From: Opitutus sp.
GTDB taxonomy: Bacteria; Verrucomicrobiota; Verrucomicrobiia; Opitutales; Opitutaceae
Length of the DNA: 64,000 nt
Reading direction: 5' to 3'
Assembly: GCA_009695305.1 (NCBI GenBank)
Contig: SIBG01000009.1
Span: forward strand, 1-64,000
Positions within the stretch are counted from its first letter, which is position 1. Each line of letters opens with the position of its first letter. The translations under genes and the position numbers were made by a program. The notes below the pieces were generated by a model. That model saw only the letters and a list, made by a program, of their open reading frames with translations. It ran no database searches and had not been told where the DNA came from. Below, in pieces: positions 283-20,602 of this stretch.

Positions 283-3200
283 ATGCACTCTCCATCCACC
301 GCCGCCGGCTTTATCACTGATCGTCGACGCTTTCGACTTGCCCGCCGGCTGCTGACGGCTGGCGCTCTAACCGTCGCCCTAGCTTCGATGTGGGCGCAAA
401 GTTCCAGTGTGCCCCTCGCCGTAACCACCCTAGCCGGGCAGGCCGGCGCCTCCGGCTACGCGGACGGCAGCGGCACCGCGGCGCGCTTTCTTAACCCCAG
501 CGGCCTCGCGGTTGACACCAAGGGCAACCTCTTCGTCGCCGACTCGGGCAACAACACCATCCGTAAGATCACCCCGGCCGGAGTCGTGACAACCTTCGCC
601 GGGATCGCGGTTGATCCTGACACGGGAGTGGCCGGAAACGGCGGCACCGCAGATGGCGCCGGCAGCGCCGCACAGTTTTCCTTCGGCAAAGCCAACATCG
701 ACAACATCGGATCCACCGGCCTAGCCATCGACATCAACGACAATCTCTTTGTCGCCGACACGCTAAACAACTCGATCCGAAAATTATCGCCGACGGGAAT
801 CGTGACCACCATGGCGCTGAAGGATGCTGCGACCGGTAGTAGCATCGCCCTCAACTCTCCCGACAGCGTCGCCGTGGATACTGCCGGCAATCTCTACGTG
901 GCCGACTCGGGCATCAATCAAGTCCGCAAGATCACCCCCGCCGGCAACGTGAGTGTCTTTGCCGGGTCGACCAACCCCAACGCCTCCTCCGGCAGCGCCG
1001 ATGGCACGAGCACCGCGGCCTCATTTAATAATCCGCGCGGGATCGCCGTCGACAGCGTGGGCAATGTCTACGTGGCCGACACGAACAACCACACGATCCG
1101 CAAAATCACCCCCGCCGGCGTCGTCACGACGTTGGCCGGTTCGGCTGGCACCCCGACCAAGAACAGCGCCGGCAATTCTGACGGCCTCGGAAAGAACGCC
1201 CGCTTTAACACTCCCATCGGCCTCAGCGTCGATGCTTCCGGCAATCTCTATGTCGCGGACAAGGGCAACAACGTCGTGCGCAAAATCTCCCCGTCCGGCC
1301 TCGTCACCACGCTAGCCGGTGCGCCGGGCGCCGCCAGTGGCACCGACGGCACGGGCAACGCCGCCCGCTTCAGCCAGCCCTACAGCCTCACCGCGGACAC
1401 CGCCGGCAACCTCTACGTGGCCGACACGAAAAACCAGACCATCCGCAAGGGTGTTGCCAGCAGTTCAACGGCGAGTGTGCAAATCCAGACCCAGCCGTTG
1501 ATTCAAATCGTCCATGTCGGCCAGAGCACGACGTTCAGCGTGAACGCCACTGGCACGCCGGCGCCGACCTATCAGTGGCAGAAAAATGGCGTGAATATTT
1601 CGGGCGCGACCAGCGCGAACTACACGCTGGCTTCCCCGCAGCTCGCCGACGATCGCACTTATTACGCCGCCGTCATCAGCAGCGGCGGCGTGTCGCTCAC
1701 CACCAGCGCGGCGCAACTCCAGGTCTATTCCGCGGCGGTTTTCATTCCATCGATCATCATTCTAACTCAACCGACCGACCTGACCGTCACGGCCGGCCAG
1801 AGCGCCACGTTGTCCATCGATGCTTCGGGCAGTCCCGTGCCGACCTATCAGTGGCAAAAGAACGGCACCAATATTTCTGGCGCCACTGGGGCCGACTACA
1901 CCCTCAACGCCGCGCAGGCTTCCGACGGCGGGCTCTACAAGGTCGTCCTCACGAGCTCGGGCACCTCGCAGTCCTCGAACGAAGTCGGCCTCACCGTGAG
2001 CGCCGCGGTGGTCACTCCGGTGGTGATCGTCAGCCAGCCCAACGCCCAGACGATCAATCTCGGGCAAAATGTGACGTTTACCGTGCAAGCCACGGGCAAC
2101 CCTCTCCCGACTTATCAGTGGCAGAAAAACGGCGTGACCATTTCCGGCGCGAACAGCCCAAGCTACGCGATCACGTCCGCCCCGGCCAGCGCCGCCGGTA
2201 ACTACAAGGTCATCGTCACCAATTCCGCCGGCTCTGTCACGTCCGCCGAGGTCGCACTGACGGTCAACACCATCGTCGTGTCCGCCATCGTCATCACCAG
2301 CCAGCCGGCCACCCAAACCGTCACCGTCGGTCAGAACGCGATTTTTTCCGTGCAGGTCACCGGCACCACCCCCGGCTACCAGTGGCAGCGAAACGGCGCG
2401 ACGATTACCGGTGCCACCAGCGCGACCTACACGATCACTGATGCGCAAATCAGCGATGCGGCCAATTACCGGGTCATCGTCACCAACTCTGTGGGTGCCG
2501 TCACCTCCAGCGAGGTCGCCCTCACCGTCAATGCGCCCGTGCCGGTAATCACCAACCCCGGGCGGTTGATCAACCTCTCCGTGCTCGCTCCGCTCACCAC
2601 GGCCGGCGACACGTTCACGCTCGGCTACGTCGTCAACGGCGCCAGCGCGACCAACGCGAAGCCGCTCGTCATCCGCGCCGCCGGCCCCTCACTCGGCGCG
2701 CTCGGCGTCCCTGGCACGCTCGCCGACCCACAGCTCGAGCTGTTCGCCGGCCCAACGAAAACCGGCGGCAACGACGACTGGGGTGGCTCGCCCGCCACCG
2801 CGACCGCCATGGCCGCCGTTGGAGCGTTTGCCTACACTGGCGCCACCTCGCGCGACGCCGCTGTCGCCGCCAACATCACCTCCCGCGATAACTCCGTGAA
2901 AATTTCCGCGGGGCCCGGCGCGCCCGCTGGCATCGGCACCGTCATCGCCGAGGTCTATGACGCCACTCCGGCGACCAGCTTCAACGCGACCACCCCCCGA
3001 TTGATTAATTTTTCTGTCATCAAGAACGTCAGCACCAAAGTCACGCTGGGGTTCGTGGTTGGCGGCGGGGCCAACAAGACCGTGCTGATCCGTGCCATCG
3101 GACCAACCCTCGGGATCCCGCCGTTCAACGTCGGGGGCGTGATGGCTGACCCGAAAGTCGAGCTCTTCAATGGCGCCTCGGTTAGCATCGGGACCAACGA

Positions 3201-3387
3201 TAACTGGGGCGGCACGATTGATCTCACGGCGGCGTTCGTCGCAACCGGAGCCTTCGCGCTGCCGCCGACTTCGAAGGACGCCGCTCTGATCGCCACGCTG
3301 ACACCCGGAAATTACAGCGTGGAAGTCACCCCGGCGACCGGCACGGCAGGCGGCACGGCGCTGCTCGAAGTCTACGACGTGCCGTGA
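283..3387 (+). CDS. Secreted NHL-repeat / Ig-like domain protein
   Basis: Large exported protein of 1034 residues, probably cell-surface or secreted. After a Twin-Arg-rich but ordinary N-terminus and hydrophobic stretch (about residues 20-40) come six NHL units, each carrying a GNLYVADSGNN-type core (about 45-385), enough for a six-bladed beta-propeller. Four Ig-like domains follow, each with a YQWQKNG strand (about 390-750). Two tandem C-terminal modules of about 130 residues (about 760-893 and 903-1034) begin RLINLSV/RLINFSV and contain NDDWGG or NDNWGG; this module recurs at the ends of large verrucomicrobial proteins. The ATG at 283 was chosen over the TTG at 274. A binding or adhesion role is inference; no catalytic motif is visible. 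A hairpin just after the stop suggests a monocistronic unit. Confidence 0.88.
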   Translation: MHSPSTAAGFITDRRRFRLARRLLTAGALTVALASMWAQSSSVPLAVTTLAGQAGASGYADGSGTAARFLNPSGLAVDTKGNLFVADSGNNTIRKITPAGVVTTFAGIAVDPDTGVAGNGGTADGAGSAAQFSFGKANIDNIGSTGLAIDINDNLFVADTLNNSIRKLSPTGIVTTMALKDAATGSSIALNSPDSVAVDTAGNLYVADSGINQVRKITPAGNVSVFAGSTNPNASSGSADGTSTAASFNNPRGIAVDSVGNVYVADTNNHTIRKITPAGVVTTLAGSAGTPTKNSAGNSDGLGKNARFNTPIGLSVDASGNLYVADKGNNVVRKISPSGLVTTLAGAPGAASGTDGTGNAARFSQPYSLTADTAGNLYVADTKNQTIRKGVASSSTASVQIQTQPLIQIVHVGQSTTFSVNATGTPAPTYQWQKNGVNISGATSANYTLASPQLADDRTYYAAVISSGGVSLTTSAAQLQVYSAAVFIPSIIILTQPTDLTVTAGQSATLSIDASGSPVPTYQWQKNGTNISGATGADYTLNAAQASDGGLYKVVLTSSGTSQSSNEVGLTVSAAVVTPVVIVSQPNAQTINLGQNVTFTVQATGNPLPTYQWQKNGVTISGANSPSYAITSAPASAAGNYKVIVTNSAGSVTSAEVALTVNTIVVSAIVITSQPATQTVTVGQNAIFSVQVTGTTPGYQWQRNGATITGATSATYTITDAQISDAANYRVIVTNSVGAVTSSEVALTVNAPVPVITNPGRLINLSVLAPLTTAGDTFTLGYVVNGASATNAKPLVIRAAGPSLGALGVPGTLADPQLELFAGPTKTGGNDDWGGSPATATAMAAVGAFAYTGATSRDAAVAANITSRDNSVKISAGPGAPAGIGTVIAEVYDATPATSFNATTPRLINFSVIKNVSTKVTLGFVVGGGANKTVLIRAIGPTLGIPPFNVGGVMADPKVELFNGASVSIGTNDNWGGTIDLTAAFVATGAFALPPTSKDAALIATLTPGNYSVEVTPATGTAGGTALLEVYDVP

Positions 3388-6045: not shown

Positions 6046-6188
6046 AAGTAAAAATCCCCGGGGCAAGCCCCGGGGCATTTGACAAGACCGCCGCAAACTC
6101 ATCCGACCATAATGCAATTCGCGCTTAAACCCGTCCGTCCAACCAAGCCGAAGCAAGCTTCGGGGTATCGGACCCATCGCGAATGAAA
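6046..6188 (+). repeat. 143-bp two-hairpin dispersed repeat, copy 1
   Basis: Matches 19746-19888 base for base without gaps except at 6177-6178 (141 of 143 identical, offset 13700). It holds two perfect hairpins with the same GC-AA-GC tip: CCCCGGGGC/GCCCCGGGG at 6056-6075 and CCGAAGC/GCTTCGG at 6148-6163. It encodes nothing obvious. Size and structure fit a REP/BIME-like or MITE-like non-autonomous element; no transposase is in the window. The last bases (GAATGAAA) supply the ATG of the small ORF that follows. Exact ends are uncertain because only two copies can be compared. Confidence 0.85.
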
Positions 6189-19039: not shown

Positions 19040-19041
19040 AT
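18856..19041 (-). CDS. Possible small hypothetical protein
   Basis: A 61-residue frame starting at an ATG that overlaps the divergent radical SAM ATG at the CCATGG site. Third codon positions are about three-quarters G or C, as in real genes here, and the sequence (APLARDAAAARAKRKASVPR) is plausible for a basic soluble peptide. No family is recognised. The overlap of start codons with a divergent gene and the short length argue for caution. Confidence 0.3.
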   Translation of the reverse strand: MAEKSVEFQPAHAFGAVPATAAGGVELDAPLARDAAAARAKRKASVPRPLRPGATGIMIGI

Positions 19042-20602
19042 GGCACGAGTCCTCCTAATCAACCCTTCTTACAAGGTAACCTACTCGAGCACGATGGCTC
19101 GCTTCGGTGTGCCGTTTTATCCGGTTCTTTCCCTCGCCACCATCATTCCCAAACTCAAGGAGTCGGGACACCTGGTGCAGGTGATGGATCTCTGTTACGA
19201 GGATTTCAACCTCCCCCTCATTCAAGAGCGAATTAGAACATGGAAACCCGATATCGTCGGACTCACTGGCACCACGCCACTCTTCTCGCAGATCCGGACG
19301 ATTGCGCGGGCGGTCAAGGAGATTTCACCCGCCATCGTGACCGTCGGCGGCGGGGCGCATTGCTCGGCGCTGCCCGAACTCGCCCTCGAAGAGGCGGGCT
19401 TCGACTTTGTCTGCTTCGGTGAGGGCGATTTTACCCTCGCCCAAATCGCCAACGGCCGGGATCCCGCCGGGATTCTGGGGATCGTGCGACGGGACGGCGG
19501 CGGGCACATCGTCAAAAACTTTCCCAACGCCTGGCTCAAAGACCTCGACGACCTGCCCTACCCGAGCTGGGACGAGTTCAATCTGCCCCAATATGAGCGT
19601 TATTGGTCGCGGCTGATCGCGCGCCGCCAGCCCGTCGCGTTCTTTGAAACAACGCGGGGCCGTGTCTTCTCCTGCAATTATTGCGGCTCCAAGAACACGG
19701 TTGGACGCGGTTTCCGCAAGAAGTCGGTCGCCCGTGTCATCGACGAAGTAAAAATCCCCGGGGCAAGCCCCGGGGCATTTGACAAGACCGCCGCAAACTC
19801 ATCCGACCATAATGCAATTCGCGCTTAAACCCGTCCGTCCAACCAAGCCGAAGCAAGCTTCGGGGTATCGGACCCACAGCGAATGAAATACAGTCGCCGC
19901 CATGGCTTTCGCGAATTTTTCATCGTCGACGACATTTTCACCACCGATGTCCCTCGCGTGAAGGAGATTTGCGAGGGCATCATCCGCGAGCAGCTCGATA
20001 TCGCCTGGAGCTGCGCCAACGGCATCCGGGTCGACTCGGGCGACCAGGAGATGTTCGACCTGATGCGCCGCGCCGACTGCTACAAAGTCGCCTTCGGGTT
20101 CGAGTCAGGAGACGATCGCGTGCTAAAGGAATTTGGGAAAGGCGGACGCGCCACCGTCGAAGCCGCCCGGGGGACCGTCGCGATGGCGCGAAAGGCGGGC
20201 ATCGATGTCTTCGGCTTTTTCATGGTCGGACTGCTCCAGGACACCGAGGAATCGATGGCCAAGACCATCGCGCTTGGCCGCGAGCTGAAGACTGACGTCC
20301 TGAAGATCAGCATCTCGGTCCCGTTTCCCGGGACGCCCATGTATTCCGAACTGAAGGCCAAGGGGCTCCTGAACGAATTCGACTGGGACAAATACAACGT
20401 CTACAATCCCCAGCGGCTTTACCGGCACCCGACGTTGTCGTGGGACACGATTGAGCGGTTCTACAAACTCGCCTATCGGAAAATGGTCCTGACCAATCCG
20501 TCCTTTTACTACCGGCGCCTCCGCCACGGTCTGCTGACGGGCGAATTCCTCTACGACATCTACTACTTCATCCGCTTTCTGTTAGCCGGCGCGAAGATTT
20601 AG
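19040..20602 (+). pseudogene. B12-binding/radical SAM protein, interrupted and missing a cluster cysteine
   Basis: Originally about 475 residues: an N-terminal B12-binding-like domain (about 1-150), a radical SAM barrel and a C-terminal tail, as in B12-dependent radical SAM methyltransferase-like or cyclase-like enzymes. Two lesions are visible. First, the 4Fe-4S motif CxxxCxxC reads RVFSCNYC, with Arg208 (CGT, 19661) where Cys (TGT) is expected. Second, a copy of the 143-bp repeat sits after DEVK. The insert adds 135 bases, so the frame is kept, but TAA at 19826-19828 ends the first ORF. The second half resumes in the same frame from the ATG at 19883 and looks intact to its stop. The enzyme is very probably inactive unless another gene supplies the function. 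Confidence 0.85.
19746..19888 (+). repeat. 143-bp two-hairpin dispersed repeat, copy 2 (inside radical SAM gene)
   Basis: Same element as at 6046-6188, in the same orientation and with the same two hairpins (19756-19775 and 19848-19863). It interrupts the radical SAM reading frame and introduces one TAA. The near-identity of the two copies indicates recent spread or strong constraint. The bases outside the element read cleanly as one protein when the 135-base insert is removed, which gives a good estimate of the insertion point. Confidence 0.88.

Follow-up and report, generated by a model that had tools for sequence, protein, structure and literature searches.

The 64,000-nucleotide stretch of Opitutaceae DNA analysed here (the window) carries a plus-strand gene at 19040–20602 that is split by an insertion. 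The first part (19040–19747) encodes a B12-binding domain (PF02310, 6.2e-18) and the N-terminal part of a radical SAM protein, with orthologues in L131–L135; the second part (19883–20602) encodes the radical SAM domain (PF04055, 3.7e-11) and shares 95% amino acid identity with L134. As a sequence-only reading of this DNA had noted, the two halves share one frame, and 135 bp with a single TAA have been added between them. The radical SAM orthologues in Opitutaceae are single intact frames. The radical SAM CxxxCxxC motif has lost its first cysteine: 5/5 orthologues checked have it (as TTRGCVFSCNYC or TTRGCVFACNYC), and the codon here is CGT for arginine (19661–19663, plus strand). A dN/dS of about 0.03 relative to L134 shows that the gene was under strong constraint until recently. 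Owing to the insert and the loss of the first radical SAM cysteine, the split gene is best read, from its sequence, as a young pseudogene, and the insertion as a recent inactivating event.

The inserted segment occupies 19748–19882, with borders defined by 44 aligned copies and by the empty site in orthologues; another copy lies at 6048–6182. We refer to these as copy 2 and copy 1, respectively. In IS200 terms, the top strand of the transposon is the minus strand at 19748–19882. The sequence-only reading had described a two-copy repeat at 6046–6188 and 19746–19888, and these stretches do share 141 of 143 bases without indels (mismatches at 6177 and 6178); the repeat stands, but the inserted segment itself is slightly shorter. 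The A at 19747, common to both window copies, lies outside the insert and reflects a strong flank preference: A directly precedes the insert in 40 of the 44 copies, compared with 12.5% of genomic ATGAA sites. On the IS strand, the base past the cleavage site is thus T (A on the plus strand) in 40/44 copies, and a +1 base preference is a known kind of effect (PMC5934647).

Every aligned copy starts with GTAAA and ends with GCGA. The GTAA at 19748–19751 is, on the minus strand, the RE cleavage site TTAC at the element end and is invariant (44/44 copies). Directly after the element stands ATGAA in 42 copies, and ATAAA and ATGAC in the remaining two. On the minus strand this reads TTCAT and flanks the IS strand on its left, at 19883–19887 for copy 2 and 6183–6187 for copy 1. 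Empty sites, which the sequence-only reading had proposed to look for, were found in Opitutaceae orthologues, which have exactly 135 bp fewer and read GACGAG|ATGAAA; L131 and L134 have ATCGACGAG|ATGAAATACAGC at the position of the insert, and L132 has TTGAAG there, likewise without an insert. As ATGAA is present only once in empty sites, it is the retained target and there was no target duplication.

The window belongs to an Opitutaceae metagenome-assembled genome (4.29 Mb, 136 contigs, 87% complete). A DNA search of this genome gave, among the matches listed, at least 40 at ≥99% identity, with E values down to 2.7e-75, which excludes chance as the source of the repeat, and searches with hairpin patterns found further copies. 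In total, 44 copies were listed and aligned, so the prospect that only the two window copies exist, raised earlier as grounds for rejecting mobility, did not materialize; 3 of the 44 are at contig ends and may represent two sites. Thirty-five are letter-identical, and all are 135 bp in length except one, which was shortened by a hairpin deletion. One additional, more diverged copy on contig 17 brings the total to about 45. The letter identity of the copies points to a very recent burst. Relatives of the element are present in 82 of 252 family genomes, with 135-bp versions in several genera; a search of viral contigs and plasmids for the element gave no match.

Beside the main burst, contigs 102 (L079) and 17 (L044) carry two diverged elements of this type, one of them with compensated hairpins (CCCCGCGG/CCGCGGGG), pointing to older waves of the element. 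Contig 27 carries, at about 3160–3230 (L078), a near-perfect long palindrome in which two LE ends stand head to head (TTCATTCGCTATGGGTCCGATACTCCGAAGCAAGCTTCGGAGTATCGGACCCATAGCGAGTGAA), possibly a terminal-only or aberrant transposition product.

Each end of the element carries a hairpin on the minus strand: the RE hairpin CCCCGGGGCTTGCCCCGGGG at 19756–19775 and the LE hairpin CCGAAGCTTGCTTCGG at 19848–19863. They share the GC-AA-GC tip that had been noticed from the sequence alone. Relatives show paired variants of the RE hairpin (CCTCGGGGC/GCCCCGAGG, CCCCGGAGC/GCTCCGGGG and CCCCGCGGC/GCCGCGGGG) and of the LE hairpin (CCGGAGC/GCTCCGG and GCGAAGC/GCTTCGC). Single-strand folding energy is by itself unremarkable (z of −1.3 and −1.6); it is these compensatory changes, rather than folding energy, that support the predicted hairpin structure.

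Putative guides precede both hairpins on the minus strand: AATG, the RE guide, is directly 5′ of the RE hairpin (19776–19779), and GATA, the LE guide, lies just 5′ of its LE counterpart (19866–19869). In the IS608 structure, guide base 4 pairs with position −1. Each IS608 hairpin has on its 5′ side a tetranucleotide guide that base-pairs with both the target and the RE cleavage site; the partner of guide base 1 is target position −3, and that of base 2 is −4 (A+16:T−3 and A+17:T−4; PMC5934647). This rule predicts GATA for TTCAT, AATA for TTTAT and AATG for TTTAC, and allows the RE guide to pair with the terminal TTAC. With the present genome excluded, LE guides and targets covary as predicted: GATA goes with TTCAT in 22/23 elements, AATA with TTTAT in 10/14 and AATG with TTTAC in 4/4 (all four from one genome); one GATG element at TTTAC, for which TTCAC is predicted, is an exception. 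Where guide base 1 is G, target position −3 is C in 24/25 cases; where it is A, C is found in 0/18 (17 T, 1 G; P = 3e-11, a value that overstates independence, as do the other P values on these pairs, because the counts include related copies). The RE guide also covaries with its cleavage site (AATG with TTAC, n = 17; AATA with TTAT, n = 1). No other evidence speaks as strongly as this guide–target covariation for movement of the element along the single-strand route of the IS200/IS605 family.

Candidate partners for the element are visible in the same genome as fragments. Six contigs stop inside the 5′ part of tnpA adjoining a matching LE (TATCGGACCCATCGCGA|ATGAA), and five stop inside the 3′ part of tnpA adjoining the same kind of RE (GTAAAGATCCTCGGGGCAAGCCCCGAGG). 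These IS ends all lie at contig ends, which shows that the assembly broke at every full-length IS copy; the full-length IS is known here from its ends alone, the interior being unassembled. In one search for IS ends, the middle of the query was a guessed IS200-like sequence; matches were confined to the true ends, taken from this genome, and these alone were counted. Relatives have an intact IS with matching ends and a TnpA of 151–152 amino acids. The TnpA of a relative's copy belongs to Y1_Tnp (PF01797, 8.6e-36) and matches the TnpA structures of IS608 and ISDra2 (2a6m and 2xm3); its DHVHFL and GYF align to the HUH motif and the catalytic tyrosine of ISDra2 TnpA. No tnpB was seen beside tnpA. 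About ten other Y1_Tnp genes (L031–L040; open frames of 155–340 amino acids) occur in the genome without a link to these ends.

The LE of the 135-bp element is almost letter-identical to the IS LE, and the element and the IS also share the RE and a portion of the 3′ end of tnpA. The element's interior is similar to the 3′ end of the IS, and 0 of 1,000 shuffles were as good. Shared LE, RE and tnpA 3′ part form the pattern expected of an internal deletion derivative. Most copies differ slightly from the resident IS at their ends, in the LE (CCCACAGCGA compared with CCCATCGCGA), in the RE hairpin and at one base outside it. Three copies—window copy 1 and those on contigs 23 (L045) and 51 (L050)—have at the LE not CCCACAGCGA but CCCATCGCGA, the variant of the autonomous IS, which suggests that ends were exchanged or that a second copy served as source.

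Palindrome-associated transposable elements (PATEs) of the IS200/IS605 type have been described in Haloquadratum walsbyi (PMC3119063) and Halanaerobium (PMC7290912). Judged by the definition given in PMC3119063, the 135-bp element is very probably a homogeneous PATE, a transposase-less derivative of an IS200-type element of the IS200/IS605 family. It has palindromes near both termini (the two hairpins), left no target duplication (empty site in L131, L132 and L134), is at 135 bp and at most 45 codons too short for a transposase, and has ends in common with a transposase-bearing IS, both in its own genome and in relatives; guide pairing is seen in natural covariation, and the TnpA of the relative's copy has the Y1_Tnp domain, HUH motif and tyrosine of the family. 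The sequence-only reading had proposed a recently mobile, non-autonomous, REP/MITE-like element and a transposase, to be sought as a Y1 gene, that acts on it from elsewhere. The many copies and the empty site bear out the first part of that proposal, and the label gives way to that of a PATE. A MITE in the strict sense is rejected, as the element has neither terminal inverted repeats (read inwards, GTAAAAATCC at one end bears no relation to TCGCTGTGGG at the other) nor a target duplication.

We compared the landing sites of 41 copies with 660 background ATGAA sites, using a rough codon-usage gene call for gene location. Copies are depleted in genes (10/41 compared with 495/660 background sites, P = 8e-11). 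About 9–12 of the 41 (9 by the gene call) stand exactly at a start codon, compared with 72/660 in the background; among non-genic ATGAA sites, start codons are not overrepresented (9/31 copies compared with 72/165, P = 0.16). Purging from genes together with the ATGAA target explains the landing pattern, and a start-codon targeting mechanism is unnecessary after the background test of ATGAA sites. Five copies (L006, L012, L019, L021 and L055) lie in ATGA stop–start overlaps of gene pairs, the background figure being 18/591 sites. Each of these five insertions changes the last codon synonymously from NAA to NAG and substitutes the TAA of the element for the TGA, leaving both proteins unchanged. 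Such protein-silent insertions follow from the sequences of the element end and of the target, and selection for them would be hypothetical.

It is nonetheless conceivable, if improbable, that the end design (G|TAA, ATGAA target and preceding A) is maintained for protein-silent insertion at ATGA-coupled operon junctions, with the element as a mobile spacer or leader that uncouples neighbours. We hold it quite improbable that the element is selected and domesticated at operon junctions, its G|TAA end and start-codon target being kept to give the gene pair a new leader or spacer while leaving the proteins unaltered. The copies exactly at start codons, the unchanged proteins at all five ATGA overlaps and the 135-bp versions in several genera would agree with such a role; however, there is no start-codon excess among non-genic sites, pairing to the RE guide AATG already explains the GTAA end, and the copies are too young to show retention.

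There is very little likelihood that the element is a REP/BIME-type repeat spread by a RAYT (TnpA-REP), to which the hairpins, the many copies, the involvement of a Y1 transposase and the other Y1_Tnp genes of the genome might point. The two hairpins differ and stand at fixed spacing, the 135-bp units have constant borders, an empty site exists, the ends match a tnpA element of IS200 type, and the copies are mostly letter-identical; unlike REP sequences (PMC2817692), the element has no GTAG or GGAG 5′ of a single palindrome. The REP/BIME (RAYT) class is defined by a single imperfect palindrome with a 5′ GTAG-type tetranucleotide, whereas the guides here are GATA and AATG, and we rejected this assignment.

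The option, also raised by the sequence-only reading, that an insert of 45 codons with one TAA and an ATG directly after it is tolerated through readthrough or reinitiation, the split gene still working as one or two proteins, is highly implausible: that ATG is part of the retained target ATGAA and lies outside the insert, length does not vary between sites, whether genic or intergenic, copies overall avoid genes, orthologues are single intact frames, and arginine has replaced the first radical SAM cysteine, which five orthologues retain.

The PATE retains two subterminal hairpins, two putative guide tetranucleotides, cleavage sites and a degenerate tnpA 3′ remnant. We infer that it is mobilized in trans, through single-stranded steps. 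A TnpA dimer (HUH, single tyrosine) supplied by full-length IS copies would recognize the hairpins on single-stranded DNA; pairing of guides with cleavage sites would lead to excision of the strand as a circle; and the circle would enter on the 3′ side of a TTCAT, a target selected through base pairing to the LE guide GATA, and would leave this target unduplicated.

The split-gene observation is thereby settled as a recent transposition event, and a recent burst of an IS200-type PATE is documented in Verrucomicrobiota; searches of an open full-text library turned up no earlier description from Verrucomicrobiota or Opitutaceae, which is weak evidence of absence. The burst conceals its own transposase, given that the assembly breaks at each full-length copy. 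The differences in guide and target among related elements support, from natural variation, the guide-pairing rule established with IS608. Elements of this kind are already known; the data are a clear natural example of target choice by such elements.

Like known PATEs, the element lacks terminal inverted repeats, has near-terminal palindromes, causes no target duplication, is too short for a transposase, has IS200/IS605 ends and has expanded as near-identical copies (a ‘homogeneous PATE’). It differs from them in its host (Opitutaceae, Verrucomicrobiota), its IS200-type partner with tnpA only, its target TTCAT, its two different hairpins with the same tip and a 135-bp length kept in several genera. 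With REP/BIME sequences and their RAYTs (PMC2817692) it shares palindromes, abundance and a link to a Y1 transposase; in contrast to them, it is a fixed two-hairpin unit with an empty site and an IS200-type partner, and not a GTAG-type single-hairpin unit. With IS608 and ISDra2 it has in common a homologous Y1 HUH TnpA, subterminal hairpins, the rule by which guides pair with cleavage sites, insertion 3′ of a short target and a +1 base preference, whereas the element itself is gene-less and has a GATA guide and TTCAT target in place of the AAAG and TTAC of IS608.
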